From: Nanobdellota archaeon
Lineage (GTDB): Archaea > Nanobdellota > Nanobdellia > Pacearchaeales > GW2011-AR1
Length of the DNA stretch: 16,730 nucleotides
Direction: 5' to 3'
Assembly (NCBI GenBank): GCA_018816205.1
Contig: JAHIWJ010000175.1
Location: 1 to 16,730 of the forward strand
Shown here: positions 2-12,122 of the stretch, piece after piece
Layout: every line of letters begins with the position of its first letter
Position numbering within the stretch: position 1 is the first letter of the stretch
Notes under the pieces: generated by a model
Databases searched by the model: none
Seen by the model: the letters and a program-made list of their open reading frames with translations, nothing else
Told to the model about the DNA's origin: nothing
Made by a program: the position numbers and the translations under genes

Positions 2-601
2 CCCAGCAAGCTCGACAAAATTCCTCAACAATACGACGACATTCGCGTCATTGTCTATTCCATTCCAAAACACACCGACATCAAAAAAACCCCCGACATC
101 ATCGAACTAGCTGTTCAGTCCGACAACAAACTAGAATATGTAAAAAAGTTCATCGGAAAAGAAATTTCTTTAGCAGATTCCTTCAAATCCAACTTGGTCG
201 ACGTCAGAAGCCTATCCAAAGGAAAAGGCACTCAAGGTCCAGTAAAAAGATTCGGCATCGCCCTAAGATTCCATAAGTCTGAAAAAGGCCTTAGAAAGGT
301 CGGTTCGATCGGACCATGGCATCCGGCACACGTCACTTTCAGAACACCAATGGCCGGCCAAATGGGTTATCACTCAAGACTCGTTCACAATCTTCTCGTC
401 TTAAATTCAGGCAACATCGCCGAAAAAGATATCAATCCAAAATCCGGTTTTCCACACTATGGAAAAATCAAGACTTCCTACATAATCCTCAACGGCTCGG
501 TCCCGGGCCCGCAAAAAAGACAAATTCTTCTAACTCATTCTTTCAAACCAAGCAAAATGCAATCCAAAAAGAAATTTGAGTTTTTGGAGGTGCTGCAATG
601 A
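2..601 (+). CDS. rpl3: 50S ribosomal protein L3 (uL3), 5' end outside window
   Basis: Large-subunit protein that binds 23S rRNA near the peptidyl-transferase region and is an early assembly protein. The reading frame is open from base 2, so only about the last 199 residues are present. Recognition rests on the archaeal/eukaryotic L3 core: VDVRSLSKGKGTQGPVKRFG, then VGSIGPWHPAHV and AGQMGYHSR, and late SVPGPQKR. The final codons, for FLEVLQ, contain the sequence GGAGGTG (586-592), which acts as SD for the small gene starting at 598. The stop TGA (599-601) overlaps that gene's ATG. The gene heads the canonical archaeal L3-L4-L23-L2 order. Identity is certain; the start codon cannot be seen. Confidence 0.97.
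   Translation, partial: PSKLDKIPQQYDDIRVIVYSIPKHTDIKKTPDIIELAVQSDNKLEYVKKFIGKEISLADSFKSNLVDVRSLSKGKGTQGPVKRFGIALRFHKSEKGLRKVGSIGPWHPAHVTFRTPMAGQMGYHSRLVHNLLVLNSGNIAEKDINPKSGFPHYGKIKTSYIILNGSVPGPQKRQILLTHSFKPSKMQSKKKFEFLEVLQ
586..592 (+). promoter_or_regulatory. SD inside rpl3 for the first inserted gene
   Basis: GGAGGTG, a near-perfect anti-SD match, lies in the codons for Leu-Glu-Val near the end of rpl3, 5 bases before ATG 598. It determines the start of the 598-831 gene and shows that rpl3's last codons are adapted to coupling with it. Confidence 0.7.
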
Positions 602-831
602 GCAGTAAATCAAGAGAGTACGCCCTATTAAGGGGCCGACGCGATGCATATTTAGATATAGCCAAAGAATTATTTTTCAGATATGACCTTAGTGGTGCGG
701 AGTTTTGCCTGAGGGAAGCAATGAAAAAAACAAAGAGGTTTGGTGAAAGTGTTGAACCAATTCGAGATAGAATCAGGGAAGTCGGAAGAGGTTTGTTATT
801 TGACATGGCTGTCGTGGAGGCAGGATTATGA
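598..831 (+). CDS. Unrecognised 77-residue helical protein inserted between L3 and L4
   Basis: No family recognised. The 77-residue product looks entirely alpha-helical, with two or three helices around residues 5-30, 32-47 and 52-75, and no transmembrane segment or signal peptide. It is Arg-rich (11 Arg, 5 Lys) beside strongly Lys-rich neighbours. By hand count 5 of 9 Leu codons are TTA, compared with 2 of 17 in rpl4. The start is well supported: SD GGAGGTG at 586-592, and an ATG sharing ATGA with the rpl3 stop. Its own 3' end holds GGAGG (816-820), 7 bases before the rpl4 ATG, again with an ATGA overlap. L3 and L4 are normally adjacent, so this is an extra cistron translated in step with the operon. 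It might be a ribosome-associated microprotein or a recently acquired gene. The frame being open between perfect coupling signals argues that it is real. Confidence 0.72.
   Translation: MSSKSREYALLRGRRDAYLDIAKELFFRYDLSGAEFCLREAMKKTKRFGESVEPIRDRIREVGRGLLFDMAVVEAGL
816..820 (+). promoter_or_regulatory. SD in first inserted gene serving rpl4
   Basis: GGAGG in the codons for Val-Glu-Ala near the end of the 598-831 gene, 7 bases before the rpl4 ATG at 828. The inserted gene supplies the ribosome-binding site of rpl4. Confidence 0.7.
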
Positions 832-1610
832 AAGCTCAACTCTACTCTTCAAAAGGCGAGAAAAAGTCTCAAGTTGAACTTCCAAAGATTTTCTCAGTTA
901 GAGTCAGAGCAGACATCGTAAAGAAATACTTTGAAGCAGACAAATTCATTCAGCCGTACATGCCAAAACCAAGAGCAGGCCTAAGGCAAAGTGCAACAGG
1001 AACAATTTCCCACCAAAGACATGACTGGAAAGGCCACTACGGCCGAGGAATTTCCAGAGCCCCAAGAAAAACAATGCGGCGTCGGGGAACTCAGTTTTTC
1101 TGGGTTGGCGCAAATGTTCCGGGAACCAGAGGCGGCCGACAGGCACATCCTCCAAAAGGAATCGGCGTAGAGAAAAAAATTAACAAAAAAGAAATCAAAC
1201 TTGCTTTTGAATCTGCATTTGCAGCAACCGCAAACAAAGAACTCATCACAAAAAGATATTCTACCCTTGGCAAAATAGAACACGTCCCATTCGTTGTAGA
1301 ATCACTTCCAGCCAAAACTAAAGAACTCAAGGACCTAATCAAGAACATCTTTGGGGAAAACTCCAAACTCGCTTTCAAAAATAGAGAAACTCGCGCAGGC
1401 CGAGGTTCGATGCGTGGAAGAAAATACAAATCCAACGCCGGCGTTTTAATCCTAACCGGAGAAGAAAAAAAAATAAAACTTTCTGGTTTTGATATAAAGA
1501 GCATAAAAGAAGTTTCAATCTCAGACTTTTATCCTCTGGGAAGACTAACCATCTACACCCAAAAAGCACTGGAAAGCTTAAATAAAGAAATCAAGGAAAC
1601 TAAAAAATGA
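828..1610 (+). CDS. rpl4: 50S ribosomal protein L4 (uL4, L4e/L1e type)
   Basis: Binds 23S rRNA domain I and sends an extended loop into the nascent-peptide exit tunnel. The 260-residue length fits archaeal L4. Recognisable parts are the Arg/Gly-rich tunnel-loop region at about residues 50-110, including the Gly/Arg-rich segments PRAGLRQSATG and GTRGGRQAHPPK, and the later RAGRGSMRGRKY segment at about 188-199. The C-terminal half has the alpha/beta fold pattern expected of the family (GVLILTGEE, then an FDIKSIKEVSISDFYPLGRL-like end). Translation starts at the ATG overlapping the preceding small gene's stop, with SD GGAGG at 816-820. It ends in an ATGA overlap with rpl23. Lys outnumbers Arg about two to one, typical of this operon. 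Confidence 0.96.
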   Translation: MKAQLYSSKGEKKSQVELPKIFSVRVRADIVKKYFEADKFIQPYMPKPRAGLRQSATGTISHQRHDWKGHYGRGISRAPRKTMRRRGTQFFWVGANVPGTRGGRQAHPPKGIGVEKKINKKEIKLAFESAFAATANKELITKRYSTLGKIEHVPFVVESLPAKTKELKDLIKNIFGENSKLAFKNRETRAGRGSMRGRKYKSNAGVLILTGEEKKIKLSGFDIKSIKEVSISDFYPLGRLTIYTQKALESLNKEIKETKK

Positions 1611-1849
1611 TCCTCAAGCCAATAACTTCCGAAAAAGCAGTAAAAATGATTGACCTAGACAACACCTTGCTTTTCCAACTGGAAAAAAGAGAATCAAAAG
1701 ACGAAATCAAAAAGGAAGTCGAGAGAATGTTCAAGGTAAAAGTCGAAAAAGTTAGAACATTCATTCAGAACAACAAAAAATTCGCTTATGTAAAACTCAA
1801 AAAGGAGAACCCGGCTATTGACGTTGCAACCAAGCTGGGAATGATATAA
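1607..1849 (+). CDS. rpl23: 50S ribosomal protein L23 (uL23)
   Basis: Small protein at the exit-tunnel rim, where it is a docking site for SRP and the SecY translocon. The 80 residues match the compact archaeal form. Diagnostic features are the N-terminal KPITSEKAVKMID motif, the Lys-rich helix KDEIKKEVERMFKVKVEKVRT, and the strand FAYVKLKKE followed by the short ending AIDVATKLGMI. The start ATG overlaps the rpl4 stop by four bases, with an AAGGA-type SD just upstream. The stop TAA shares one base with the ATG of the next small gene (TAATG). In most archaea rpl2 follows directly; here a 124-codon gene intervenes. Confidence 0.95.
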   Translation: MILKPITSEKAVKMIDLDNTLLFQLEKRESKDEIKKEVERMFKVKVEKVRTFIQNNKKFAYVKLKKENPAIDVATKLGMI

Positions 1850-2223
1850 TGGCAGAAACAAACGGACTCAACACGCAGATAGATAAAAATGTTCCAATAA
1901 GAATAAATTTCGATGATCGCGTTCAATTTTTTGAAGACGACCAACCTTTAGCTGTTCGCCCAGCCTACATTCCAGGCAGAAGCCAATGGATTTATTTTAA
2001 AGATAACGGGGTTGTGGCCACATGTACAAGACCTTGCGCCCAAGGATCCGTAGATATTTACTTTGATGTTAGAATGGCTGTTTTAAGCAGGCAAGAAATA
2101 ACTATTCGTGGACGGGTGGCGGTTCAGTCCGATACATTCGGTGACGCCTTTGATTATCAGAAAAAGCGACAACTTTTTGAAGAATTAGGTTTACAAAGTA
2201 TTCGAACAGGAGTTAAAAACTAA
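1849..2223 (+). CDS. Unrecognised 124-residue beta-rich protein inserted between L23 and L2
   Basis: No family recognised. The product looks like a soluble, mainly beta-strand domain: alternating hydrophobic stretches such as VPIRINF, WIYF, VDIYFDVRMAVL and ITIRGRVAVQ run up to about residue 97. A C-terminal helix (FDYQKKRQLFEELG) follows. Two cysteines spaced CTRPC lie near residue 60. It has 11 Arg and 5 Lys, and 4 of 6 Leu codons are TTA, unlike the r-protein genes. The ATG overlaps the rpl23 stop as TAATG; no strong SD is visible upstream, so reinitiation is likely. AGGAG (2208-2212) at its 3' end, 12 bases before the rpl2 ATG, could serve rpl2. L23 and L2 are normally neighbours, so this is an extra cistron. 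A beta-barrel nucleic-acid or protein binder is possible but unproven. Confidence 0.72.
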   Translation: MAETNGLNTQIDKNVPIRINFDDRVQFFEDDQPLAVRPAYIPGRSQWIYFKDNGVVATCTRPCAQGSVDIYFDVRMAVLSRQEITIRGRVAVQSDTFGDAFDYQKKRQLFEELGLQSIRTGVKN

Positions 2224-2224
2224 A

Positions 2225-2929
2225 ATGGGGAAAAGAATAATCCAACAGGCTCGTGGAAAGGGAAGCTTAACCTACAGAGTTAGAAAGCAGGCCTACAACA
2301 AAAAGATAGCTTATCCTCTCCAAGGTGAACAAACCGAAGCAGAAATAATCTCCATAGTGCACTCAGCAGCACATTCCGCTCCGCTAATGAAAGTGAAATA
2401 TCAAAACAAAACATTTTACAACGCAGCTTTCAACGGGGCATTTGTAGGGCAAAAAATCTCTTTCGGCCAGGGCAATCCTGAAAAAGGCAGCACCTTGCCA
2501 ATCGGAAAAATTCCTCAGGGAACAGAAGTTTACAACATCGAACGAAATCCTGGCGACGGCGGAAAAATGACTAGAACCGCGGGCTCCGCAGCAGCAATAA
2601 CAAAACATCTTGAAAACAAAAAAGTCACAATAACAATGCCAAACAAGAAAGTCATAACACTCAACGGAGAATGCAGAGCCACAATCGGAAGGATTGCTGG
2701 AGAAGGAAGAATCTTAAAACCATTTGTCAAGGCCGGGAAGAAGCACTACAAAATGAAAGCCCGAAATAAACTATGGCCAAGAACTTCAGCAATAAAATTC
2801 AATGCAGTCGACCACCCATTCGGCTCTGGCCGAGGCAAGAGAATTAAACAAAAGATTGCCAAGCGCAACGCTCCACCGGGAGCAAAAGTCGGACACGTCC
2901 GACCAAGAAGAACAGGATACAGAGGTTAA
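2225..2929 (+). CDS. rpl2: 50S ribosomal protein L2 (uL2)
   Basis: Core large-subunit protein needed for subunit association and peptidyl-transferase activity. The 234-residue length is normal for archaea. Seen are the N-terminal IIQQARGKGSLTYR segment, the SH3-like core (GQKISFGQGN, GTEVYNIERNPGDGGKM, RTAGSAAAI), and the C-terminal VDHPFGSGRGKR block at about residues 195-206. The VDHP sequence is the near-universal conserved loop that reaches towards the peptidyl-transferase centre. The Arg/Lys-rich end (HVRPRRTGYRG) is typical. The start ATG is one base after the stop of the upstream small gene. rps19 follows after six bases. Confidence 0.97.
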   Translation: MGKRIIQQARGKGSLTYRVRKQAYNKKIAYPLQGEQTEAEIISIVHSAAHSAPLMKVKYQNKTFYNAAFNGAFVGQKISFGQGNPEKGSTLPIGKIPQGTEVYNIERNPGDGGKMTRTAGSAAAITKHLENKKVTITMPNKKVITLNGECRATIGRIAGEGRILKPFVKAGKKHYKMKARNKLWPRTSAIKFNAVDHPFGSGRGKRIKQKIAKRNAPPGAKVGHVRPRRTGYRG

Positions 2930-2935
2930 GTAAAA

Positions 2936-3343
2936 ATGGCACAAGACGAACAGCAAGTAAGAAAGAAAGAACAAATCTACAGAGGCAAATCTCTTGAAGA
3001 GCTAAAAGAGCTCGACGTAAGAGAAATCGCAAAATTCTTGCCAGCGAGAAGTAGAAGAAGCGTTATGAGAAATTTCGACGTCATTCAGAAGTTTGTAAAG
3101 CGATGTGAGAAGAGGACAAGCCGAAATAAAAAGATAAAAACTCACCTCCGAGACATTGTAATCGTCCCAAGACTTGTCGGGCTGACAATAGCCGTCCACA
3201 ACGGAAAAGCTTTCCAGGAAGTCCCAATAACCGTGGAAATGATAGGCCATAGACTAGGCGAATTCGCGCTCTCAAGAGGAAAAGTAAATCACGGTAGCGC
3301 AGGACTTGGAGCAACCAAGTCTTCCCGCGCACAGAAGAAATAA
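2936..3343 (+). CDS. rps19: 30S ribosomal protein S19 (uS19)
   Basis: Head-domain protein of the small subunit, in complex with S13 and contacting the tRNA/B1 bridge region. The 135 residues include the archaeal N-terminal helix region ([20 protein letters not shown], about residues 15-34), then the core signatures [19 protein letters not shown] and the very conserved [15 protein letters not shown] block near residues 104-115. A short basic tail ends the protein. Start ATG is six bases after rpl2, with AGAGGT (2922-2927) as a plausible SD. The stop TAA overlaps the rpl22 ATG by one base. Confidence 0.96.
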
Positions 3344-4017
3344 TGGCAGAAGAAACTAAAAAACCAGCAACCAAGAAAGAAACCAAAAAGATAGTCGCAA
3401 AACCCCTTCCAGTGGACAAGGAAAAAGCTAAAGAGATAGAAGAGCAAATGAAGCAAATCAAACAAGCTCCAGAAGAGAAAAAAGAATCACAAGAAAAGGA
3501 ACCCGCCAAGGTCGAAGAAAAAGTTCCCGAAAAAAAGGAGGAGAAACCCGCAGAGAAAAAAGAAGTAAAGAAAGTAGAAATTAAAAAGAAAGAAGAAGCG
3601 ATTGCTAACGGCATCTCTCTTCCGATTTCAAAGAAGCATTCAATGTACCTTTGCTCATTCATCAAAAACAAAAAAATTGATGACGCAATCAAAGATCTTG
3701 AGCAGGTTGTAAAAATGAAAAGAGCAGTGCCATTCAAGGGAGAAATACCTCACCGAAAAGGAAACATCGAGCGGGGGCGTTATCCGGTAAAAGCAGCTGG
3801 ACACTTTATCAATCTCCTGAAGGGCTTGAAAGGAAATGTTCTGACAAACCAAATGGAGCTTGAAGAAACAAGAATATACCTCGCATCTGCGTCGTGGGCA
3901 AACCGCCCCATGCGGCGTGGCGGTGTTGCGGCAAAGCGAACAAACATAATCCTGAAAGCCAAAGAATTTCCTGAGAAAGTTCAAACTAAGAAAGCAAACA
4001 AGGAGGAAAAGAAATAA
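3343..4017 (+). CDS. rpl22: 50S ribosomal protein L22 (uL22) with long charged N-terminal extension
   Basis: Exit-tunnel protein whose beta-hairpin lines the constriction together with L4. The conserved domain begins only near residue 88 (ISLPISKKHSMYLC) and continues through KDLEQVVKMKRAVPFKGEIP, the Arg-rich hairpin, and NIILKAKEF. Total length is 224 residues against roughly 150 in most archaea. Residues 1-85 are almost entirely Lys/Glu/Pro/Ala, low in complexity and probably disordered or a charged helix, rich in KKE and EEK repeats. No internal Met with a good SD sits just before the core, and the first ATG overlaps the rps19 stop (TAATG), so the extension is probably translated. rps3 follows with another TAATG overlap. 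Confidence 0.94.
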   Translation: MAEETKKPATKKETKKIVAKPLPVDKEKAKEIEEQMKQIKQAPEEKKESQEKEPAKVEEKVPEKKEEKPAEKKEVKKVEIKKKEEAIANGISLPISKKHSMYLCSFIKNKKIDDAIKDLEQVVKMKRAVPFKGEIPHRKGNIERGRYPVKAAGHFINLLKGLKGNVLTNQMELEETRIYLASASWANRPMRRGGVAAKRTNIILKAKEFPEKVQTKKANKEEKK

Positions 4018-4778
4018 TGGAAGAGAAAAAATTCGTAAACTTCAAGAAAGATGAGTTGCGAGTTCGAGAGTACATAAAGAATGCCCTAGGCAAGGGAAGA
4101 ATCAGCGCAGTTATTATAGAATACACTCCAGTAGGAGAAAAGATAAAAGTCTCCACTTCACGTCCAGGCCTCGTCATCGGAAGAAAGGGCGAAAAAATAG
4201 ATGAGTTAACAAGAGTTTTAAAGAGACGTTTTAACCTTGACAATCCCCACATAGAAATCGTGGAAATCACTGAACCCATGCTCGATGCCCAATTAGTCGC
4301 TGATGAAATCGCAGTAATGCTTGAAAGAAAAGGTTCTTTGAAATTCAAGGTGATTGCTTACAAAACCCTACAGCAAATAGTCAGGGCAGGCGCACTAGGC
4401 ACAGAGATTACTCTCGCTGGAAAACTCCCGAGCGACAGAGCAAGAACTTGGAGATTCACCCAGGGCTACCTTATGAAAACAGGAGAGCCGGCAAAAATTG
4501 TAGACCGCGCTCAATCGCAGGCAGTAACCATCGCAGGCGTCGTAGGTGTTTCAGTAGCAATCCTCAGACCAGACGCAATCCTAAGCGACAGAATCAAAAT
4601 CGATGAAAATATGAGGCAAAAAATCAGAATGTCTTTCGCTGAATTGAACATTCCGGCTGAAGAACAAAAAAAAGTAGAAAAGAAAGAAACCAAAACTAAA
4701 AAGAAATCTTCTAAAAAATCAACGTCAAAGAAGACTAAGGAAGAAAAATCAGAAGAAGCCGGGGAGGAAAAAGAATAA
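4017..4778 (+). CDS. rps3: 30S ribosomal protein S3 (uS3)
   Basis: Forms part of the mRNA entry channel. The N-terminal half is a type-II KH domain, with the GLVIGRKGEKI loop at residues 51-61, followed by the S3 C-terminal domain (LAGKLPSDRARTWRFTQGYL and VGVSVAIL). Length is 253 residues because the last 35-40 residues are a Lys/Ser/Glu-rich tail of low complexity. The start overlaps the rpl22 stop as TAATG, with a strong SD (AAGGAGG) in the end of rpl22. The 3' end carries GGGGAGG ahead of rpl29, again with a TAATG overlap. Confidence 0.96.
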   Translation: MEEKKFVNFKKDELRVREYIKNALGKGRISAVIIEYTPVGEKIKVSTSRPGLVIGRKGEKIDELTRVLKRRFNLDNPHIEIVEITEPMLDAQLVADEIAVMLERKGSLKFKVIAYKTLQQIVRAGALGTEITLAGKLPSDRARTWRFTQGYLMKTGEPAKIVDRAQSQAVTIAGVVGVSVAILRPDAILSDRIKIDENMRQKIRMSFAELNIPAEEQKKVEKKETKTKKKSSKKSTSKKTKEEKSEEAGEEKE

Positions 4779-5005
4779 TGGCCGTCCTAAAAAATTCAGA
4801 AGTGAAAAAAATGTCAGACAAAGAATTAAATGACAAGCTGACAGATTTAAAAGCCGAGTTAACCCGGGGAAGCGTCACAGCCAATAAAGCCAATGCAAAA
4901 ACCAAAGAACTTAAAAGGGCGATTTCAAGAATATTAACAGCTATGAACGCTAAAAAATCGCAGATCAGACTCAATTCCTCTGAAAAGAAGGAGTTGAAGA
5001 AATAA
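4778..5005 (+). CDS. rpl29: 50S ribosomal protein L29 (uL29)
   Basis: Small helical-hairpin protein at the exit tunnel next to L23, part of the SRP docking surface. The 75-residue sequence begins MAVLKNSEVKKMSDKELN and continues with the family pattern DLKAELTRG and then KTKELKRAISRILTAMNA. This is the usual L29 two-helix layout, with a short basic tail. The start shares one base with the rps3 stop. AAGGAG (4988-4993) within its final codons is 12 bases before the ATG of the next gene (aIF1), which begins immediately after the TAA. Confidence 0.93.
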   Translation: MAVLKNSEVKKMSDKELNDKLTDLKAELTRGSVTANKANAKTKELKRAISRILTAMNAKKSQIRLNSSEKKELKK

Positions 5006-5302
5006 ATGGATTCAAACGAATTCGGCTTACCAAGTGAAACCGATGTGTTTGAAGAAATCGCGAAAAGCGAACAGCAGATAAAAGTGACGACCCAGACGAG
5101 GAGATACGGGAAAAAAATAACACTCGTCGAGGGTTTTGACAAGCACGTGGACGTCAAGTCCGTGGCAAGGAGCCTGAAAGAAGGGCTCGCTTGCGGCGGT
5201 ACAGCAAAAGACGGCGTAGTAGAACTGCAAGGAGACCACAAGAAGAAGGTTCGGCCTCTTCTTGTGAAGCTCGGATTTGCTGACGACACCATCAGCGATT
5301 AA
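5006..5302 (+). CDS. Translation initiation factor aIF1 (SUI1/eIF1 family)
   Basis: Binds the small subunit near the P site and monitors start-codon pairing. The 98-residue product has a short acidic N-terminus and then the SUI1 fold from about residue 25. Signatures are TRRYGKKITLVEGFD, the sequence LACGGTAKDGVVELQGDH at about 62-79, and a C-terminal KVRPLLVKLGF helix. The position between L29 and S17 is the usual archaeal one, but the RNase P subunit gene that commonly follows is absent. Start ATG directly abuts the rpl29 stop. A 22-base gap with a weak AAGGT SD separates it from rps17, one of the largest spacings in the operon. Confidence 0.95.
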   Translation: MDSNEFGLPSETDVFEEIAKSEQQIKVTTQTRRYGKKITLVEGFDKHVDVKSVARSLKEGLACGGTAKDGVVELQGDHKKKVRPLLVKLGFADDTISD

Positions 5303-5324
5303 CTTTTCAAACCAAGGTCCAAAT

Positions 5325-5705
5325 ATGGCAGAGAAGAAAGAAAAGAAGCAGTCAGCAACGGCTGCGCACGAAGAGAACGGAAAAGAAACGAACTTCAGAA
5401 AAATAGTGGGAACCCTGGGAATTTCCACAAGAGGCAGGGTCTTTCAGGGCAAGGTTATCAGAAAATTTCCTAAAAGAGTTACAATTGAATTCGAACGCAC
5501 CATTAAGATTCACAAATTCGAAAGGTTCATGAAAAAGCGAACAAGAATTCACGCAAGACTCCCAGACGAATTCGCAGATCAAATCAACACAGGCGATTTA
5601 ATCAAGGTCCAAGAAACTCGCCCCCTGAGCAAATTAATTCATTTTGTTGTGGTTGAAAAAATCAGGTCTGCAGATGTTAAAGAAAATAAGGAGGATGGAA
5701 AATGA
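5325..5705 (+). CDS. rps17: 30S ribosomal protein S17 (uS17)
   Basis: Primary 16S rRNA-binding protein of the small subunit (OB fold). An upstream in-frame ATG exists at 5277 inside aIF1, but the ATG at 5325 is chosen because it follows aIF1 with AAGGT (5314-5318) before it and gives a 126-residue protein. The archaeal S17 core is GRVFQGKVIRKFPKRVTIEF, the sequence FMKKRTRIHARLPDE, and GDLIKVQETRPLSKLIHFVV near the end. The first 20 residues are a charged extension. The 3' end carries AAGGAGG (5688-5694), and the stop TGA overlaps the ATG of the following small gene. Confidence 0.95.
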   Translation: MAEKKEKKQSATAAHEENGKETNFRKIVGTLGISTRGRVFQGKVIRKFPKRVTIEFERTIKIHKFERFMKKRTRIHARLPDEFADQINTGDLIKVQETRPLSKLIHFVVVEKIRSADVKENKEDGK

Positions 5706-5725
5706 TAGTCTCTACCGAAGGAGGT
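5688..5725 (+). promoter_or_regulatory. Two tandem strong SDs before and inside the Cys-rich gene
   Basis: AAGGAGG at 5688-5694 precedes ATG 5702 by 7 bases. AAGGAGGT at 5718-5725 precedes ATG 5735 by 9 bases, in the same frame. An intermediate ATG at 5726 is too close to the second SD. Either or both of 5702 and 5735 could start the protein. Confidence 0.65.
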
Positions 5726-5920
5726 ATGTTAGACATGAGTAGAAAAAGGAAAAGAGTAAATCTAGCTACACAAGCAGTCACAACCGGAAACCGTTATAAT
5801 ATATGTCCTAAGGCGTATATGGGCTGTGAAGGAGCAAAGAATTCTGACCTATTTGAAACTGTCTGTTCAAGAGATTGTTATTCTAAATGCTCGGAAAATT
5901 TTCCAGGGGTAAGGAAATAA
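5702..5920 (+). CDS. Unrecognised small Cys-rich protein inserted between S17 and L14
   Basis: No family recognised. From ATG 5702 the product has 72 residues; from ATG 5735 it has 61. Both starts are well served: AAGGAGG (5688-5694) lies 7 bases before 5702, and AAGGAGGT (5718-5725) lies 9 bases before 5735. The 5702 start also shares ATGA with the rps17 stop. The protein opens with a basic run (SRKRKRV, residues 13-19) and has five cysteines at 35, 42, 55, 59 and 63, spaced C-x6-C-x12-C-x3-C-x3-C. This could bind zinc or an Fe-S cluster, or form disulphides. Arg and Lys are equal (6 each). Its 3' end has AAGGA a few bases before rpl14, which starts one base after the TAA. S17 and L14 are normally adjacent, so this is an extra cistron. 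Confidence 0.68.
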   Translation: MIVSTEGGMLDMSRKRKRVNLATQAVTTGNRYNICPKAYMGCEGAKNSDLFETVCSRDCYSKCSENFPGVRK

Positions 5921-5921
5921 C

Positions 5922-6350
5922 ATGGCAAAAAAATCAACAATCATTTCAGGGAAAGCGATAAGCGCAAAACCAACTCGCGGCCTAAACATCGGTAGCGTAG
6001 TCATAGCCAGCGATAACTCTGGTGCTCAAATTGTAAGAATCACAGGAGTAAAGGGCGGAAAGTCAACAAAGAAACGACAGCAATATGCTAAGGTCGCAGA
6101 CTGGGTAAAAGTCTCGGTAAGAAAAGGCAAGCCCGATATGAAAGGTCAAGTTTTCGATGCAGTGGTTATCCGCCAAAAGAGACCTTACAGGAGAAACACT
6201 GGCGAGCGAGTCTGCTTCGAAGACAACGCGGTAGCAATTCTTAAGGACGACAAAGGCAATCCAAAAGGCACCCAGATTAAAGGTCCAGTCGCACGTGAAG
6301 TTCAGGAAAGATGGGGGTCTGTCGCAAAAATTGCGCAGTTTGTGTTATGA
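5922..6350 (+). CDS. rpl14: 50S ribosomal protein L14 (uL14)
   Basis: Large-subunit interface protein forming bridges with 16S rRNA and the site where anti-association factors dock. The 142 residues show SVVIASDNSGAQIVRITGV near the start, then VKVSVRKGKPDMKGQVFDAVVIRQKRPYRR, the conserved FEDNAVAIL block and the end KGPVAREVQERWGSVAKIAQFVL-type helix. The ATG is one base after the preceding small gene, with AAGGA upstream. The stop TGA overlaps the ATG of the next small gene (ATGATGA context at 6347). No SD is visible in its last codons, which is unusual in this operon. Confidence 0.97.
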   Translation: MAKKSTIISGKAISAKPTRGLNIGSVVIASDNSGAQIVRITGVKGGKSTKKRQQYAKVADWVKVSVRKGKPDMKGQVFDAVVIRQKRPYRRNTGERVCFEDNAVAILKDDKGNPKGTQIKGPVAREVQERWGSVAKIAQFVL

Positions 6351-6604
6351 TGACAACAAGTCGAAATTGTGATCATTATATTGAAAGTGTATCTAGCCAA
6401 GTTGATAGGTTATTACTGAGAGCAGAAGAGGCCGATTCTGCAGCAGATACGCGTAAAATTTGTTTATTGGGTGCAGAACAGGTATTAGAAGAGCTACGGC
6501 GTTATCTTGTGGAGCACCATTTAGGCGGGGGATCTCCTACCTTTTCGGATGTGTATCTCTCAAGGTTAACAAGATTAGCTAATTTGATGGAGGCCACGCG
6601 ATGA
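6347..6604 (+). CDS. Unrecognised 85-residue helical protein inserted between L14 and L24
   Basis: No family recognised. The 85-residue product is predicted helical, with helices roughly at 9-29, 33-55 and 66-84 separated by a Gly-rich turn (GGGSP). There is no membrane segment. It is the most atypical gene here: 9 Arg against a single Lys, and 7 of 13 Leu codons are TTA. Asp is always GAT. The start is set by the ATGA overlap with the rpl14 stop (a second ATG follows at 6350). An earlier in-frame ATG at 6311 lies inside rpl14 and is less likely. No clear SD precedes it, so translation probably depends on reinitiation after rpl14. GGAGG (6589-6593) near its end is 7 bases before the rpl24 ATG, again an ATGA overlap. 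L14 and L24 are normally adjacent. Confidence 0.7.
   Translation: MMTTSRNCDHYIESVSSQVDRLLLRAEEADSAADTRKICLLGAEQVLEELRRYLVEHHLGGGSPTFSDVYLSRLTRLANLMEATR
6589..6593 (+). promoter_or_regulatory. SD at end of L14/L24 inserted gene serving rpl24
   Basis: GGAGG within the Met-Glu-Ala codons of the inserted gene, 7 bases before the rpl24 ATG. This nearly repeats the spacing and sequence (TGGAGGC) seen at the end of the gene inserted between L3 and L4. Confidence 0.68.
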
Positions 6605-7059
6605 AATCCTTCTTCTCAACTCACTGGCTCTCGTCGAAGAAACCCCGTAAACAAAGGAAGTTCGCAATCAACGCTCCTTTCCATATCAAACACAATTTCT
6701 TGAATGCAAACCTCTCAAAAGAATTAAGAAAGAAATATGGAAAGAGATCTTTCCCCGTAAGAAAAGGCGATGAAGTCCTTGTGATGCGCGGTTCATTCAA
6801 AAAGAAAAAAGCAAAAATCTCAATTGTCGACGCTAAAAGAACTCGCCTCGCATTAGAAAACATTCAGAGAACAAAAAAAGACGGAACAAAAGTGAACGTT
6901 TGGTTCAACCCAAGCGCATTACAAATCCAAGCTCTAACGCTCGACGATAAAAAAAGAATCGCTTCATTGCAGAGAACAAATAAAAAACCCATTTCAGAAT
7001 CAAAACCAAAATCCAAGGAGGGAAGTCAGAATGCACCAGACAAGAGCGCAAGTAAGTAA
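6601..7059 (+). CDS. rpl24: 50S ribosomal protein L24 (uL24)
   Basis: Assembly-initiator protein at the tunnel exit. The archaeal/eukaryotic L26-type N-terminus is clear (THWLSSKKPRKQRKF and HIKHNFLNANLSKELRKKYG), followed by the KOW segment FPVRKGDEVLVMRGSFKKKK at about residues 51-70 and KVNVWFNPSALQIQAL. The 152-residue length includes a polar Lys/Ser-rich C-terminal tail of about 30 residues. The end of this tail overlaps the first 29 bases of rps4e in another frame. The start ATG overlaps the upstream small gene by four bases, with SD GGAGG 6589-6593. Confidence 0.95.
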   Translation: MKSFFSTHWLSSKKPRKQRKFAINAPFHIKHNFLNANLSKELRKKYGKRSFPVRKGDEVLVMRGSFKKKKAKISIVDAKRTRLALENIQRTKKDGTKVNVWFNPSALQIQALTLDDKKRIASLQRTNKKPISESKPKSKEGSQNAPDKSASK

Positions 7060-7657
7060 GAAAATTCCAATAGCAAGAAAAGGAACAAAGTACGTAGCAA
7101 GGCCTCTTGGCGACAGAGAAAATTCAGTGCCCATTGTAATCGCCGTAAGAGATATGCTTCACCTTGCGAAGACTGCCAAAGAAGTTAGAAAGATGATTCA
7201 GCAAAAACTTCTCAAGATAAACGGAAAAGAAGCAAAAGACTACAGGGACTCAATCAGACTATTGAGCCTCTTTGAAGCAGACAAGACATACATTCTTACT
7301 TTGGATCCCACGAGAAGATTCGTGCTCGAAGAAACCAAACAAAAAGAAAGGCCCTGCAAGGTTGTCAATAAAAAGGTTTTGAAAGGAAAAAAAATCCAAC
7401 TAAACCTCCATGACGGCTCAAACATTCTTTCCGATAACAAAAAAATTAACACCCAAGACACAATCTATCTCGATGCAGAAAGCAAAATTAAGAAGCATCT
7501 ATCCTTCGACAAAGGCCGCGCCTGTTTAATTACAAGGGGAAGATTCATCGGACAAAAGGGAATCGTCGAGAAGGCAGAAAAAAACAAAGTCTTGGTCAAA
7601 ATTAAAAACCTTGATGTTGAAACGAATCTCGACAAAACTGGAGTAATACTAATATGA
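7031..7657 (+). CDS. rps4e: 30S ribosomal protein S4e (eS4)
   Basis: Archaeal/eukaryotic-specific small-subunit protein on the solvent side. The 208-residue product shows KIPIARKGTKYVARPLGDR, then IVIAVRDMLHLAKTAKEVRKM, an S4-like RNA-binding segment (KLLKINGKEAKDYRD) and a C-terminal KOW-like region (RGRFIGQKGIVEKAE). The start is fixed by AAGGAGGG (7015-7022), 8 bases before ATG 7031, inside the end of rpl24, giving a 29-base overlap. The N-terminus is short compared with many S4e proteins, which begin with a longer Gly/Pro/His/Trp-rich stretch. Stop TGA overlaps the rpl5 ATG by four bases. Confidence 0.94.
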   Translation: MHQTRAQVSKKIPIARKGTKYVARPLGDRENSVPIVIAVRDMLHLAKTAKEVRKMIQQKLLKINGKEAKDYRDSIRLLSLFEADKTYILTLDPTRRFVLEETKQKERPCKVVNKKVLKGKKIQLNLHDGSNILSDNKKINTQDTIYLDAESKIKKHLSFDKGRACLITRGRFIGQKGIVEKAEKNKVLVKIKNLDVETNLDKTGVILI

Positions 7658-8172
7658 CCAAACAAAATCCAATGAGAAAAGTAAAACTGGAAAAAGTAGT
7701 CTTAAGCTGCGGCGCTACTGGTCCTGACCTGGAAAAATCCCAAAAACTTCTGGAGATGCTCACAAAAAGAAAAGCCCAGATTGTTTACTCCGGCCCGCAA
7801 AGAAGGATTCCAAATTTCAATGTCAAACCAAACATGCCCTTAGGGACATCAGTAACCCTAAGAGGGGCTTCTGCAAAAGAATACCTTCAAAAGTTCCTCG
7901 GCGCCATTGATAACAAACTTAGAAGAAAACAAATAGTAAGAAACGGATTTTCATTTGGCATTCATGAATACATTGAAATTCCTGGCGTCGAATACAAAAG
8001 AGAAATCGGAATCCGCGGCCTCAATGTCACAGCCTCGTTCATCCGCGCAGGCGTAAGGGTCAAAAGAAAAAAGATTAAATCTGGAAGAATGCCCGAAAGA
8101 CAATACGTCCACAAGGACGAAATCATGGAATTCATGAAAGAAAATTTCAAAACGGAGTTTATCGGAAAATGA
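7654..8172 (+). CDS. rpl5: 50S ribosomal protein L5 (uL5)
   Basis: Binds 5S rRNA with L18 and forms the central protuberance. At 172 residues it is typical for archaea. Features are NPMRKVKLEKVVLSCG at the start, the TKRKAQIVYSGPQRRIPNFN block, the L5 loop VTLRGASAKEYLQKFLGA and the conserved FSFGIHEYIEIPGVEYK region near residues 105-121. The C-terminal half (DITVTASFIRAGVRVKRKK-like) is also recognisable. The ATG overlaps the rps4e stop, and the stop overlaps the rps14 ATG (ATGA both times), keeping the usual L24-S4e-L5-S14 order. Confidence 0.97.
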   Translation: MTKQNPMRKVKLEKVVLSCGATGPDLEKSQKLLEMLTKRKAQIVYSGPQRRIPNFNVKPNMPLGTSVTLRGASAKEYLQKFLGAIDNKLRRKQIVRNGFSFGIHEYIEIPGVEYKREIGIRGLNVTASFIRAGVRVKRKKIKSGRMPERQYVHKDEIMEFMKENFKTEFIGK

Positions 8173-8399
8173 CAGCAAGCGATTGGAAGAAAGTAACAAA
8201 GCAGCTAAGAAGCAAACCCGCAGTAATGCAAAAATTCCTGAGACACAACAAGCCAAAAGACAGAAAGCAAGGCGTCGCCGCGCGAAAGTGCGAGCGCTGT
8301 GGTCGTTTCGGGGCACACCTAAACCAATACAACCTACACCTCTGCAGACACTGCTTCAGGGAAATTGCAGAAGAAATAGGTTTCAAAAAATACAGTTAA
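8169..8399 (+). CDS. rps14: 30S ribosomal protein S14, zinc-binding type (uS14)
   Basis: Small-subunit head protein that coordinates zinc. Cysteines 41, 44, 59 and 62 form the CxxC...CxxC zinc site, followed by the conserved FREIAEEIGFKKYS end. The 76-residue length is about 20 more than most archaeal S14, through a basic N-terminal extension (residues 1-35). ATG 8169 is chosen because of the four-base overlap with rpl5 and GGAG (8154-8157) upstream. An internal ATG at 8226 would give a standard-length protein but has no SD. rps8 normally follows; here a 108-residue gene starts one base after the stop. Confidence 0.94.
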   Translation: MTASDWKKVTKQLRSKPAVMQKFLRHNKPKDRKQGVAARKCERCGRFGAHLNQYNLHLCRHCFREIAEEIGFKKYS

Positions 8400-8400
8400 C

Positions 8401-8727
8401 ATGACAACACAAACAGAAACACAATCAAGAGAATTAAAACGAGGGGAAACTTATCAAAGAAAAGCTAGGGTGACCTTTTCATCAACCTCCCACCCTAGAA
8501 CAGGTATTGTTCTTAAAACAGAATCTCAAATAGTTACTGTGGTAGACGAACGAATTCAGGGCGGAAGAGACACCCCCCGTTATATCGATGTTTACCGATT
8601 TGACTGTGGGAGAGATGGTTCAAATCCTGAGCCAAAATATTTGGGACAGATGACTATTGATGAAAGAAATAAAAGACCTTTCAGGTTTCATGAAAAATTC
8701 ATCCAACAACACGGAGGCACACGTTAA
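8401..8727 (+). CDS. Unrecognised 108-residue Arg-rich protein inserted between S14 and S8
   Basis: No family recognised. The product is probably a soluble beta-rich domain: strands around YQRKARVTF, RTGIVLK, QIVTVVDER, YIDVYRF and KYLGQMTI, followed by a short helical basic end (RFHEKFIQQHGGTR). There are 14 Arg and 6 Lys and one Cys. The strand pattern could suit a small beta-barrel nucleic-acid binder, but this is only a fold guess. The ATG is one base after the rps14 TAA; no SD is obvious upstream. At its 3' end GGAGG (8713-8717) lies 9 bases before the rps8 ATG, and the two genes share a base (TAATG). Removing it would restore the standard S14-S8 adjacency. Confidence 0.7.
   Translation: MTTQTETQSRELKRGETYQRKARVTFSSTSHPRTGIVLKTESQIVTVVDERIQGGRDTPRYIDVYRFDCGRDGSNPEPKYLGQMTIDERNKRPFRFHEKFIQQHGGTR
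8713..8717 (+). promoter_or_regulatory. SD at end of S14/S8 inserted gene serving rps8
   Basis: GGAGG in the Gly-Gly codons near the 3' end of the 8401-8727 gene, 9 bases before the rps8 ATG at 8727. As with the other inserts, the extra gene brings the ribosome-binding site of the next r-protein. Confidence 0.66.
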
Positions 8728-9107
8728 TGTCACAAGACATAGTAGCAGACACGCTAAACCAAATGATGAATATGAAGAGAGCAGGAAAGGGAGAACTAGT
8801 CGTAACACGATATTCAAAACTTCTCTCAAGTGTTCTGGCCATCGCAAAACTCCGGGGCTACGTAGAAGATTACAAATTAGATGCTGAAACAAAAACACTC
8901 AAGATCAAACTTGGAAAACTAAACGGCTGCAACGTAATCAAACCTCGACTGATGATAAAAACAACCCAAATTGAAAGATACGTCCAAAGGTACCTTCCGT
9001 CAAAAAATCTCGGAATTATAATCGTTTCTACTTCTCAAGGAATTATGACTCATCAAACTGCTCTCGAAAAAAATCTTGGAGGAAGCTTAATCGCTTATTT
9101 TTTCTAA
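8727..9107 (+). CDS. rps8: 30S ribosomal protein S8 (uS8)
   Basis: Primary 16S rRNA-binding protein of the platform. The 126 residues begin with SQDIVADTLNQMMNMKRAGK and include SKLLSSVLAIAKLRGYVEDY. They end with the family signature STSQGIMTHQTALEKNLGGS at about residues 103-122. This is a normal-length archaeal S8. Its ATG shares one base with the preceding small gene's stop and uses that gene's 3' GGAGG as SD. The stop TAA overlaps the rpl6 ATG. Confidence 0.97.
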   Translation: MSQDIVADTLNQMMNMKRAGKGELVVTRYSKLLSSVLAIAKLRGYVEDYKLDAETKTLKIKLGKLNGCNVIKPRLMIKTTQIERYVQRYLPSKNLGIIIVSTSQGIMTHQTALEKNLGGSLIAYFF

Positions 9108-9649
9108 TGAAACATCACATCTCAGAAAAAATCTCAATCCCAGAAGGAATATCCTGTTCTTACACAGAGAGCATTTTAAGATGCACAAAAGACTCAACAA
9201 CCCTCGAACGAAAAATCAAAATCCCTCTGACCGAAGTTAAAGTCCAAGGAAATGAAATAATCTTCGATTGTAAAAAGGGCAATAAAAACAATTACAAAAC
9301 CATGCGTTCTGCAATCGCCCACATAAAAAATATGTTCTCTGGTTTAAACGAAAAATTCGTTTACAAACTAGAATCCTGCAATGTACACTTTCCAATGACC
9401 CTAAAAGTCGAAGGAACAGAGGTCTTGGTAAACAATTTTATCGGAGAAAAAAAACCAAGACGCGCTAAAATTCTTCCGGGAGTCGAAGTAAAAATCGAAG
9501 GCGCAAAAATCACAGTAACCTCAAGCGATAGAGAAGCGGCCGGGCAGACAGCAGCCAACCTTGAAAAAGCAACAAGCCTAAAAGGCCGTGACAGAAGAAT
9601 CTTCCAAGACGGAATTTACATTACAGAAAAACCCGGGAGGAAAATTTAA
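9107..9649 (+). CDS. rpl6: 50S ribosomal protein L6 (uL6)
   Basis: Sits near the GTPase-associated centre and sarcin-ricin loop. The 180-residue protein has the two tandem L6 domains: the first with SEKISIPEGISCSYTESI and KTMRSAIAHIKNMFSGLNE-like helix, the second with VEGTEVLVNNFIGEKKPRRA and EVKIEGAKITVTSSDREAAGQTAANLE. It ends with the conserved DGIYITEKPG-like sequence. It overlaps rps8 by one base; no close SD is seen, so coupling to rps8 is likely. GGGAGG (9635-9640) in the last codons serves rpl32e, joined by a TAATG overlap. Confidence 0.96.
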   Translation: MKHHISEKISIPEGISCSYTESILRCTKDSTTLERKIKIPLTEVKVQGNEIIFDCKKGNKNNYKTMRSAIAHIKNMFSGLNEKFVYKLESCNVHFPMTLKVEGTEVLVNNFIGEKKPRRAKILPGVEVKIEGAKITVTSSDREAAGQTAANLEKATSLKGRDRRIFQDGIYITEKPGRKI

Positions 9650-10002
9650 TGCCCAACAAAAAATTCATAAGGCAAGAAACAAGCAGATACTCAAAGATTG
9701 GTAAAAATCGTAAAAAGCTCCAGAGATGGAGAAAGCCAAAGGGAAGAGACAGCAAAATGCGTCTCAAGAGAAAGAGCTATCCTGCGACAGTTTCGGTCGG
9801 GTATAGCAGGGCAAGAAAAGAGCAAGGCAAAGTTAACGGAAAACTTCCAATACTCGTACACCATGTGAAAGACCTGGAGAAAATAACCAAAGACAATGTC
9901 GCACTCCTCGCGCGAGTCGGCGCCAAAAAGAAATTGGAAATAATTAAAAAAGCAGAAGAAAAGAAGATTCAAATACTAAACGTCAAGGGAGACAAAAAAT
10001 GA
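9649..10002 (+). CDS. rpl32e: 50S ribosomal protein L32e (eL32)
   Basis: Archaeal/eukaryotic large-subunit protein. At 117 residues it is near the usual archaeal size. Recognised by the opening KKFIRQETSRYSKIGKNRKK, then WRKPKGRDSKMRLKRKSYPA, followed by VSVGYSRARKEQGK and the HHVKDLEKITKDNVALLARVG segment typical of eL32. Starts at TAATG with rpl6 and ends in an ATGA overlap with rpl19e. A GGGAG sequence in the final codons is the SD for rpl19e. Its position between L6 and L19e is the standard archaeal one. Confidence 0.95.
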   Translation: MPNKKFIRQETSRYSKIGKNRKKLQRWRKPKGRDSKMRLKRKSYPATVSVGYSRARKEQGKVNGKLPILVHHVKDLEKITKDNVALLARVGAKKKLEIIKKAEEKKIQILNVKGDKK

Positions 10003-10469
10003 AACTAGAAGCAAAGAAGGAATTAGTCGCACGAGCACTAAAGGTAGGAAAAAACAGGATTGCATTTAACACTGCTCGTCTCAGCGAGGTAAAAGAAGCA
10101 ATAACAAAACAAGACATCCGCGACTTGAAGGAATCTGGAGCGATATTCGTCAAAGAAGCAGCAGGGAGAAGAGCAAAGAAAAAAAGAAAAACCAGAAGGC
10201 GAGCAGGCAGTATTAAAAAAACAGTTTCAAAGGGAAAGCGAGAATATATGCTCCTTACAAGAAAGCTGAGATCTTATCTTGCTCATCTAAAGAAAACAGG
10301 CCAGCTTCCGCGAGAAAAAATCCTCGAAATCAGGAAAGAAATTAGGGCAAGTTCATTCAGAAGCTTATCTCACATGAAGGAAAGGATAGCTCAAACCAGT
10401 AAATTCAAAGTCAAAGGAGTAAAAAATGCCAAAAATACCAAGAAGAAGAAGAGCAGAAAGAAAAACTGA
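9999..10469 (+). CDS. rpl19e: 50S ribosomal protein L19e (eL19)
   Basis: Archaeal/eukaryotic large-subunit protein near the exit-tunnel side. The 156 residues contain KLEAKKELVARALKVGKNRI, then DIRDLKESGAIFVKEAAGRR, the highly basic RAKKKRKTRRRAGSIKK stretch (about 56-74) and YMLLTRKLRSYLAHLKKTGQ. The very basic C-terminus (KNTKKKKSRKKN) overlaps the first 44 bases of rpl18 in another frame, the longest overlap in the operon. The start shares ATGA with rpl32e. Confidence 0.96.
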   Translation: MKLEAKKELVARALKVGKNRIAFNTARLSEVKEAITKQDIRDLKESGAIFVKEAAGRRAKKKRKTRRRAGSIKKTVSKGKREYMLLTRKLRSYLAHLKKTGQLPREKILEIRKEIRASSFRSLSHMKERIAQTSKFKVKGVKNAKNTKKKKSRKKN

Positions 10470-10902
10470 TTACAAAGCACGGTTCAGCATGCTTAAGTCA
10501 GGAAAACCAAGGCTCGTAGTTCGAAGAACAAATCGATACATTATTGCACAGATAGTTTGTTCAGACATTGCACAAGACAAGGTAATCGCCAGAGTAACCT
10601 CCAATGACCTCTTAAGCAAAGGTTGGCCAAAAGAAAAATCTGGCTCATTAAAGTCACTACCGGCCGCATACTTAACCGGTTTTCTGCTCGTAAAAAGCTT
10701 GAAAGTCAAGGTGGGCGAAGCAATTCTCGATCTCGGTCTTCAAAGAAGCATCAGCGGTTCAAGGCTTTTTGCAGTTCTCAAGGGGGCACTTGACGCAGGT
10801 TTAAATGTGCCCCACAATCCAGAAGCACTTCCCGAAATGGAGCGCATAGAAAAAAACGAAAAACTTAAAACAATCTTCGAAAAAGTAAGGAGAAGTTTGT
10901 AA
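10426..10902 (+). CDS. rpl18: 50S ribosomal protein L18 (uL18)
   Basis: Binds 5S rRNA together with L5. The 158-residue product has the archaeal L18 start (IPRRRRAERKTDYKARFSML), then KPRLVVRRTNRYIIAQIV, the AAYLTGFLLVKSL helix and LFAVLKGALDAGLNVPHN, where archaeal L18 proteins carry the conserved GA-DAGL-VPH motif. The chosen start has AAAGGAG (10413-10419) 6 bases upstream within rpl19e, giving a 44-base overlap. AAGGAG (10887-10892) near its end serves rps5, whose ATG abuts the TAA. Confidence 0.96.
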   Translation: MPKIPRRRRAERKTDYKARFSMLKSGKPRLVVRRTNRYIIAQIVCSDIAQDKVIARVTSNDLLSKGWPKEKSGSLKSLPAAYLTGFLLVKSLKVKVGEAILDLGLQRSISGSRLFAVLKGALDAGLNVPHNPEALPEMERIEKNEKLKTIFEKVRRSL

Positions 10903-11709
10903 ATGGCAGAAAAAGAAACAAAAAACAGCCCGAAGGACCTGGTAGAAGCAGTTCCAGAAGAAATCGCAAAACTGGATAAAGAGATAATATCAGATTCCGA
11001 AGAAGTAGTTCCATTAAAGGAAGAAGACTTAAAGAAGTTAGACCGAGAAGAGAAAACTCAAGATTCTATAGCCTCCTGGGCTCCAAAGACGAGACTAGGT
11101 AAATTAGTGAAGGAAGGAAAAGAAAAAGATATCGATAAAATCCTAAAAACTGGAAAGAAGATACTTGAATCAGAGATAGTCGACAAACTGCTCTCTTTAG
11201 AAACAGACTTAATTTTAATCGGCCAGGCAAAAGGAAAGTTCGGCGGTGGCAAAAGAAGAGCTTGGAGGCAGACTCAGAAAAAAACCAAGGAAGGAAACGT
11301 TCTGTCCTTCTCAGCCATGGCTGTAGTTGGAGACAATAACGGTCACGTAGGCGTAGGTTTTGGCAGAGCTTCAGAAACCCTTCCAGCTCGTGAAAAAGCA
11401 GTAAGAAACGCAAAACTAGGCATAATGAAAGTCGAGTTAGGTCATGAGTCGCCAGAAGAAGAATTAGACAAAAGCAAACCCCACACAATCCCTTTCAAAA
11501 TCGAAGGCAAATGCGGGAGCGTCAGAGTAACGTTTTGGCCGGCACCCCGTGGCACCGGGCTGGTAGCAGGCGACGAAATTAAAAAGATACTTTCCTTGGC
11601 GGGAATAAAAGATGCTTATACTCGTGCAGTCGGCCATACCAAAACAACTTTCAACGTTGCAAAGGCCTGCATCGACGCGCTCAGCAAAACCACAGTGGAG
11701 ATGGCATGA
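10903..11709 (+). CDS. rps5: 30S ribosomal protein S5 (uS5) with acidic N-terminal extension
   Basis: Small-subunit protein near the mRNA entry channel, involved in decoding accuracy. The conserved part starts near residue 59 (WAPKTRLGKLVKEG). It includes the double-stranded RNA-binding fold (FSAMAVVGDNNGHVGVGFGR, about 137-156) and the C-terminal domain with KCGSVRVTFWPAPRGTGLVAGDE. At 268 residues it is about 50-60 longer than usual. The added residues 1-56 are rich in Glu, Asp and Lys, likely disordered. The first ATG is supported by AAGGAG (10887-10892) and zero spacing to rpl18. The stop TGA overlaps the rpl30 ATG. Confidence 0.96.
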   Translation: MAEKETKNSPKDLVEAVPEEIAKLDKEIISDSEEVVPLKEEDLKKLDREEKTQDSIASWAPKTRLGKLVKEGKEKDIDKILKTGKKILESEIVDKLLSLETDLILIGQAKGKFGGGKRRAWRQTQKKTKEGNVLSFSAMAVVGDNNGHVGVGFGRASETLPAREKAVRNAKLGIMKVELGHESPEEELDKSKPHTIPFKIEGKCGSVRVTFWPAPRGTGLVAGDEIKKILSLAGIKDAYTRAVGHTKTTFNVAKACIDALSKTTVEMA

Positions 11710-12122
11710 TAGCAATTATAAGAATCGTCGGAGAAGTCAATGTTTCAGGGGACATAGCAGATGCACTAAGCAGATTAAGGTTAAGAAAAAAATATTCTGC
11801 AGTTCTCTTGCCAGAAACAACCGAATTAAAAAAGCTCCTGAAGAAAATAAGAAACCACGTTTCCTACGGAGAAATAAAAACCGAGACTCTTGCAAAACTT
11901 CTGGCTGCTCGAGCCCGCCCTCTGGAAAAAGGGAAAAAAATCGACGCTAAAAAAATTCTCACAGAAATTGAGAAGAAACCTCTTAGTGAACTCGGCCTCA
12001 AACCATTTTTCAGGCTTCACCCGCCACGAGGCGGCATTGACTCTAAAAAACACTCTGGCGTAGGCAAAGGGGTTCTAGGTGAGAACAAAAAAATAAACGA
12101 GTTAATTGAGAGGATGCTATAA
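11706..12122 (+). CDS. rpl30: 50S ribosomal protein L30 (uL30)
   Basis: Large-subunit protein. The 138-residue archaeal/eukaryotic L7-like form starts with IAIIRIVGEVNVSGDIADAL, continues with LRLRKKYSAVLLPET, and has the archaeal-type C-terminal half. This half includes KPFFRLHPPRGGIDSKKHS-type residues at about 97-116, where members carry a conserved FRLHPPRGG-like sequence. The ATG overlaps the rps5 stop (ATGA), with GTGGAG just upstream. Its TAA shares a base with the next ATG (TAATG), which opens a zinc-ribbon gene instead of rpl15. Confidence 0.95.
   Translation: MIAIIRIVGEVNVSGDIADALSRLRLRKKYSAVLLPETTELKKLLKKIRNHVSYGEIKTETLAKLLAARARPLEKGKKIDAKKILTEIEKKPLSELGLKPFFRLHPPRGGIDSKKHSGVGKGVLGENKKINELIERML

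Follow-up and report, generated by a model that had tools for sequence, protein, structure and literature searches.

Small single genes at the junctions of a pacearchaeote ribosomal protein superoperon: a family-wide but variable pattern

The gene order of the ribosomal protein (r-protein) superoperon is treated as nearly fixed. What, then, are five small genes doing between neighbours of this cluster in a 16,730 nt stretch of a Nanobdellota archaeon (GCA_018816205.1, contig JAHIWJ010000175.1; hereafter the window)? The original prediction, made from the letters of the window, had listed five intact extra cistrons at uL3/uL4, uL23/uL2, uS17/uL14, uL14/uL24 and uS14/uS8, with 0-1 nt spacing or an overlap at both sides. 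All five open reading frames (ORFs) were confirmed at their coordinates (INS1 to INS5): they are intact, encode 72-124 aa, and each lies within 1 nt of, or overlaps by 1-4 nt, both r-protein neighbours. The observation was right and understated; a sixth extra cistron was overlooked, and the pattern extends over the family. As argued below, junctions of growth-linked operons in this family are probably docking sites, at which single genes with non-ribosomal products can be exchanged.

Occupied junctions and their turnover

Mapping of the locus over 101 related superoperons, a comparison already proposed with the original prediction, showed the inserts to be family-wide but variable (r-protein names in the maps follow similarity to the window genes). 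From 331 ORFs called in junctions 275 were kept; 42 ORFs at uL15/SecY or SecY/EMC3 were dropped, as were 14 flanked by wide gaps. Counting inserts from 55 aa upwards, 236 of the 1,740 junctions observed in the window's family are occupied, against 2 of 166 outside it (8 loci), both of which are RNase P p29; outgroup loci L064 and L069 also have a p29-like ORF, removed by the spacing filter. Loci were chosen, nearest relatives first and then a batch weighted to large genomes, and therefore 236/1,740 is not an unbiased rate. An even draw over the class is unbiased, and there a uL23/uL2 gap of at least 200 nt was found in 3 of 9 family genomes and in 1 of 56 others (Fisher p = 0.007), eight genomes with uL23 and uL2 on separate contigs being left out.

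The number of inserts of at least 55 aa per superoperon runs from 0 to 12: among 72 well-covered loci, 49 have at least one occupied junction and 21 have five or more. Some junctions are used repeatedly (27 of 101 loci at uL23/uL2 and likewise at uL14/uL24, 24 of 95 at uL3/uL4). The congener G004 has no insert at 23 observed junctions, and the same junctions are empty in other loci too, so that inserts are seen interposed, on the same strand, between genes that are adjacent in relatives. Close relatives lacking all five inserts, together with breaks in the assembly, had been named beforehand as grounds for giving up the pattern. The former was found in G004 and the latter was not: flanking genes are intact and inserts recur at the same junctions in separately assembled relatives, hence there is no sign of an assembly break. 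The sixth cistron, labelled rubredoxin-like from sub-threshold Pfam and NCBIfam matches only, recurs in 14 of the 73 loci in which the junction after uL30 is seen and is a retained insert of one clade.

Two side observations come from the even draw. All eight genomes drawn from family f20 (G210, G220, G229, G236, G243, G254, G259 and G264) have uL23 and uL2 on different contigs, which suggests a split superoperon in that family. The sole wide uL23/uL2 gap among the 56 genomes outside the window's family (419 nt, G244:C4 near 16106-16525) may mean that the insert trait arose elsewhere in the class too.

Table 1. Extra cistrons of the window and the superoperon that harbors them
Feature	Position	Strand	Description
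INS1	598..831	+	77-aa orphan ORF at uL3/uL4; 4-nt overlap with each neighbour; helix-rich by inspection
INS2	1849..2223	+	124-aa orphan ORF at uL23/uL2; 1-nt overlap with uL23, 1 nt before uL2
INS3	5702..5920	+	72-aa Cys-rich ORF at uS17/uL14; 4-nt overlap with uS17, 1 nt before uL14
INS4	6347..6604	+	85-aa orphan ORF at uL14/uL24 (length counted from the ATG within the uL14 stop overlap); 4-nt overlap with each neighbour
INS5	8401..8727	+	108-aa orphan ORF at uS14/uS8; 1 nt after uS14, 1-nt overlap with uS8
Sixth extra cistron	12122..12316	+	64-aa rubredoxin-like ORF at uL30/uL15; overlaps the uL15 start
Host r-protein superoperon	2..12701	+	Gene names partly from family matches, the others from sequence and order

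Insert turnover is fast. Loci L126 and L127, with an r-protein identity of 92.5%, have a single insert in common (uL24/eS4) and differ at 4 of 12 shared junctions; at 81% identity, L121 is occupied at 8 of 12 shared junctions (one case being only a 41-aa ORF) and L124 at none of the 12. Orthologous inserts of L081 and L084 are 40% identical compared with 86% for their r-proteins. On a tree of 83 loci, 211 presences correspond to 176 changes, against about 197 when labels are shuffled.

Judged by sequence identity, some inserts have clearly moved between lineages. The MazG inserts of L101 and L129 share 81% identity, compared with 56.6% for r-proteins of these loci; a Nudix insert reaches 73% against 53.6%, and an insert at uL24/eS4 64% against 54.6%. 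The flanks of both MazG copies are ordinary (62% nucleotide identity in eL32 and 67% in eL19), and the small gene upstream differs between the two. From 20 insert families present in several genomes, 12 keep to one junction and 8 are found at more than one. The suggestion, also part of the original prediction, that acquired genes use the operon as a landing site fits such differences between close relatives, the transfer of some inserts and the families at several junctions.

Inserts are not confined to the r-protein superoperon, since they also occur in RNA-polymerase, gyrase and chaperonin operons. Two other clusters, str and S13-S4-S11, were mapped in 18 chosen genomes (16 loci per cluster); counting ORFs from 40 aa upwards on these maps gave 14/16 at uS12/uS7, 6/16 at uS13/uS4, 6/15 at uS11/RpoD and 5/8 at RpoB/RpoA. 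On a 171-kb contig of G002, which has 51 tight pairs, 8 orphans fit tightly inside same-strand runs. One is found at GyrB/GyrA, another next to a gene for queuosine synthesis, and the remaining six adjoin ribosomal, RNA-polymerase or DUF655 genes. In G004, a 221-kb contig with 46 tight pairs has 3 such orphans, including one at GyrB/GyrA, and a 113-114-aa gene is present at the Cpn10/Cpn60 junction of both genomes. These two contigs, a small sample, suggest that inserts concentrate in growth-linked operons.

Two further features of these genomes are reported for the record. Both GyrB and GyrA of G002 carry inteins, with a 149-aa gene between them (L175:10547-18022). The uL15/SecY gap of G004 (L032:15545-17500) contains two ORFs, one of 299 aa for a reverse transcriptase (Pfam RVT_1) and one of 258 aa with no Pfam match; the region could be, as a guess, a diversity-generating retroelement.

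Coding signal, products and junction layout

As a set, the inserts are coding. When the six frames were ranked by r-protein codon usage, an insert's own frame came first in 224 of the 258 cases that reach 55 aa across the relatives; among shadow ORFs of the same minimum length within known genes, the own frame did so in only 6 of 1,331. Taken one by one, INS1, INS2 and INS5 pass this test. The ratio of nonsynonymous to synonymous substitution rates (dN/dS) of two orphan pairs is 0.28 (L126/L127, uL24/eS4) and 0.45 (L081/L084, eS4/uL5), against 0.03-0.14 for r-proteins of the same pairs; the insert pairs that could be tested are under purifying but weak selection.

Profile searches with the five window proteins, likewise proposed with the original prediction, came back empty, in Pfam at a limit of E 0.02 as well as in NCBIfam. 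Among 5.77 billion proteins, INS2, INS3 and INS5 each match only themselves in a word-based search, which needs shared exact words. INS2 and INS4 return only self-matches in the whole genomes of 34 relatives, as does INS5 in those of 39, and INS1 finds itself and one weak match in the 34 (G016, E 0.04). Of the five, INS3 alone has clear relatives at its own junction, in G002 and G005: over these three species, 13 positions are invariant at uS17/uL14, four of which are Cys, and its profile had a single chance match among PDB sequences (E 0.41). INS5 may have a relative at another junction, eL32/eL19 of G003, where an ORF is 29% identical to it. The score is marginal, with an E value of 1.4e-4 in a set of 119 that became 0.023 in a larger one, and the 39-genome search gave no match.

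In one of five models, INS5 is predicted as a five-stranded small barrel, possibly of the SH3-like kind, with a C-terminal helix; this model has a predicted local distance difference test (pLDDT) score of 70.5, is the only one of the five above 45, and had no significant match in a structure search. The model built for INS2 from its lone sequence was unusable (pLDDT 38). Net charge per 100 aa is, from INS1 to INS5, 3.9, 0, 6.9, -3.5 and 5.6. A viral origin was considered and not supported by scans of viral contigs: INS2 had no match, and the one match of INS5, of 42 residues, lies in a shadow ORF of L135 and was rejected.

Considering the whole set, iterative profile clustering left 202 of the 275 inserts with no relative within it. 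The idea of one hidden orphan superfamily was discarded, alignments of 134 and 112 rows sharing nothing beyond the start Met. Pfam recognised, among 245 distinct inserts, MazG (5), Nudix (4), HD-type (3), GNAT (2), HAD-type (2) and p29 (2) proteins along with a handful of single matches, YhaV among them (E 6e-4). Outside that scan, an insert family is found at uL4/uL23 in ten genomes, and the single member that was tested is an RNase T-like exonuclease. The recognised inserts therefore lean to enzymes acting on nucleotides or nucleic acids. PADLOC, run on 134 of the 245, gave one family, PDC-S07, with 4 members (equal to the Nudix number) and otherwise single matches at E 9e-4 or weaker, and PHROGs on 134 inserts returned mainly Nudix, MazG and acetyltransferase matches and no clear viral source for the orphans.

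Mean net charge per 100 aa is +0.56 in inserts versus +13.3 in r-proteins, and values above +5 are found in 30 of 258 inserts versus 1,837 of 1,907 r-proteins. Median length is 104 aa and a transmembrane-like segment is seen in 3 of 258. The insert products are predicted to be soluble, near-neutral and non-ribosomal in composition. In the genus of the window, a polar N-terminus rich in threonine and glutamine is commoner in inserts (share of 0.213 at residues 2-9) than in r-proteins (0.131), which is not the case in the rest of the family (0.124). Within L121 and within L042, a number of short ORFs (34-45 aa) from separate junctions resemble each other; they are probably a dispersed intergenic repeat rather than genes, and insert families under 55 aa consist in part of such repeats.

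Spacing from the upstream stop is -4 or +1 in 204 of 258 inserts, and the ORF caller favours long ORFs starting near the upstream stop, so that the tight fit is partly built in. Equal spacing on both sides is in excess, -4 being seen 45 times where 27 were expected and +1 34 times where 26 were, uncorrected for junction. A Shine-Dalgarno (SD)-like word lies before the start in 137 of 275 inserts and in 115 of 263 cases of the next r-protein; for starts at empty junctions the count is 641 of 1,740, and for random stretches 146 of 1,740. Where such a word is present before the next start, it falls inside the insert's own 3′ end. Duplicated SD-ATGA stretches as mediators of insertion were unsupported overall, flanks behaving like shuffled sequence, and neither target-site duplication nor microhomology was found; single flank-repeat cases do exist (e.g. 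L129 at eL32/eL19, 15/16 identical).

Origin and role of the inserts

How could docking at junctions proceed? In this Pacearchaeota family, stop-start junctions of r-protein, RNA-polymerase, gyrase and chaperonin operons would be reused as docking sites, with an incoming ORF starting from the stop overlap, or from an SD-like stretch, in which the upstream gene ends. The insert would in turn carry such a signal at its own 3′ end for the downstream gene, and translation of the operon would continue. Genes would arrive by transfer between lineages and from other junctions, diverge fast under weak purifying selection, and be lost or replaced, a course that is seen in a subset; the likely gain would be steady, growth-coupled expression with no promoter of their own.

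Several results weigh against this account. Flanks show neither a repeat nor shared sequence (mean identity of 5.83/16 versus 5.86 shuffled, p = 0.65), therefore no insertion mechanism is visible. Convincing transfer is limited to three families, two of them known enzymes, and does not extend to orphans, and the 12 one-junction families are also compatible with old vertical descent and loss. INS3 and INS4 fail the single-gene coding test, their own frame not being the best of six, and in 7 of 8 genomes from the genus inserts are slightly less adapted in codon usage than r-proteins; the value for INS4 (0.52) is lower than for any r-protein of the window. INS3 is supported as a gene, despite the failed codon test, by its invariant positions and the Cys among them. 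INS4, a putative gene, is supported by its exact fit.

An assembly or gene-calling artefact would agree with those two failures, and all sequences come from metagenome-assembled genomes (MAGs), the window's own being fragmentary; it is nevertheless hardly credible in view of hundreds of inserts over many assemblies, with intact neighbours and a strong coding signal. Should the ORFs be open merely for the sake of the downstream gene, with no role for the protein itself, an exact -4/+1 fit, extreme sequence turnover and a lack of homologues would all fit, and an insert load that increases with genome size (Spearman 0.42, p = 2.6e-4, n = 72) also agrees. We regard such coupling filler as unlikely, because codon usage is gene-like, several inserts are recognisable enzymes, INS3 conserves its Cys pattern and dN/dS is below 1 in the testable pairs, lowest in the closest, although most orphans, having no homologue, fall outside that last test.

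The inserts might otherwise be old, inherited from the family ancestor and now being lost while diverging past recognition, with no new arrivals. Repeated use of the same junctions and the fast divergence of orthologues such as those of L081 and L084 are in agreement with it, but three inserts are more similar than the r-proteins of their hosts, single families sit at different junctions in different genomes and presence on the tree is scattered almost as in the shuffled case, which makes ancestral inheritance decidedly unlikely. It is very unlikely that the inserts are lineage-specific ribosomal or ribosome-associated proteins (assembly, hibernation or surface factors) kept in the operon for their function, which had been the other suggestion of the original prediction. 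They do lie among r-protein genes, most of them beside translation or RNA-polymerase genes, and some junction-bound families persist, namely INS3 in three species and the uL4/uL23 exonuclease in ten. Their charge, however, is near neutral (about +0.6 versus +13.3), most share no family, closest pairs differ in content and G004 does without any.

Docking of exchangeable genes can be carried further in two ways. Most products may tentatively be seen as accessory proteins of an adaptive or conflict type, e.g. in nucleotide-pool control or defence against mobile elements. Rather unlikely is a dedicated promoterless cassette system that inserts and swaps single ORFs precisely at stop-start junctions of the highest-expressed operons; if true, it would provide hypervariable small effector proteins expressed in step with ribosome production. 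A hot spot where single genes come and go without disturbing r-protein genes is a natural experiment, in which operon evolution and translational coupling can be studied together with the origin of orphan genes, by birth or by import. By position, many unknown and probably well expressed proteins of uncultured, probably host-dependent archaea can now be located.

Host superoperon and known systems

The window belongs to a pacearchaeote MAG (contig C163) of 1.08 Mb in 229 contigs, 72% complete. The same locus is present in Candidatus (Ca.) Pacearchaeota UBA73, Ca. Pacearchaeota RIFCSPHIGHO2_01_FULL_39_44 and one Nanoarchaeota MAG, with uL2 identities of 76-78%. The archaeal superoperon of the window is complete from uL3, itself cut at the 5′ end, to uL15, in the order uL3-uL4-uL23-uL2-uS19-uL22-uS3-uL29-eIF1/SUI1-uS17-uL14-uL24-eS4-uL5-uS14-uS8-uL6-eL32-eL19-uL18-uS5-uL30-uL15, followed by SecY. 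The eIF1/SUI1 gene (5006-5302) is an ordinary member, found in 89 of 89 loci in which both uL29 and uS17 are seen. Further downstream, positions 14682-15089 encode a stand-alone 135-aa protein matching GatE over its GAD-domain part (positions 272-389 of NCBIfam PRK04028; Pfam GAD), adjoining an EMC3/TMCO1-like gene.

Price, Arkin and Alm, in The life-cycle of operons (2006), reportedly described ORFan genes gained inside existing operons. The likeness is that new, often orphan genes stand between conserved operon genes and use the operon promoter. A lack of homologues outside the lineage, expected of ORFans, was found for INS2, INS3 and INS5 among the 5.77 billion proteins and for INS1 and INS4 within 34 genomes. 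The present case differs in scale, a single r-protein superoperon holding as many as 12 inserts of 55 aa or more, and in turnover already visible at 92.5% r-protein identity, in a gene order that is usually very rigid. Integron gene cassettes are single-ORF units, many of them orphans, exchanged between lineages and expressed from a shared promoter, all of which are traits that the inserts resemble; unlike cassettes, inserts have no repeated recombination site at their flanks, which equal shuffled sequence, and are spread over many junctions instead of one array. RNase P p29 (Rnp1), found at SUI1/uS17 in outgroup loci L067 and L070, is likewise a small non-r-protein gene in the cluster, but belongs to a conserved family with a fixed place and is not among the window inserts.

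Archaeal r-protein clusters are known to vary, and passages of one study report a less conserved organisation in Asgard archaea (PMC10833476). The variation in those passages concerns split, missing or misannotated genes, whereas here the order is kept and foreign single genes are interposed; the word 'insert' is absent from the main text of that paper. A literature search over titles and abstract openings, plus those passages, found no report of such inserts. New genes joining operons are a known kind of event, and it is the scale and the place, up to a dozen at the junctions of one r-protein superoperon, that are new to us.

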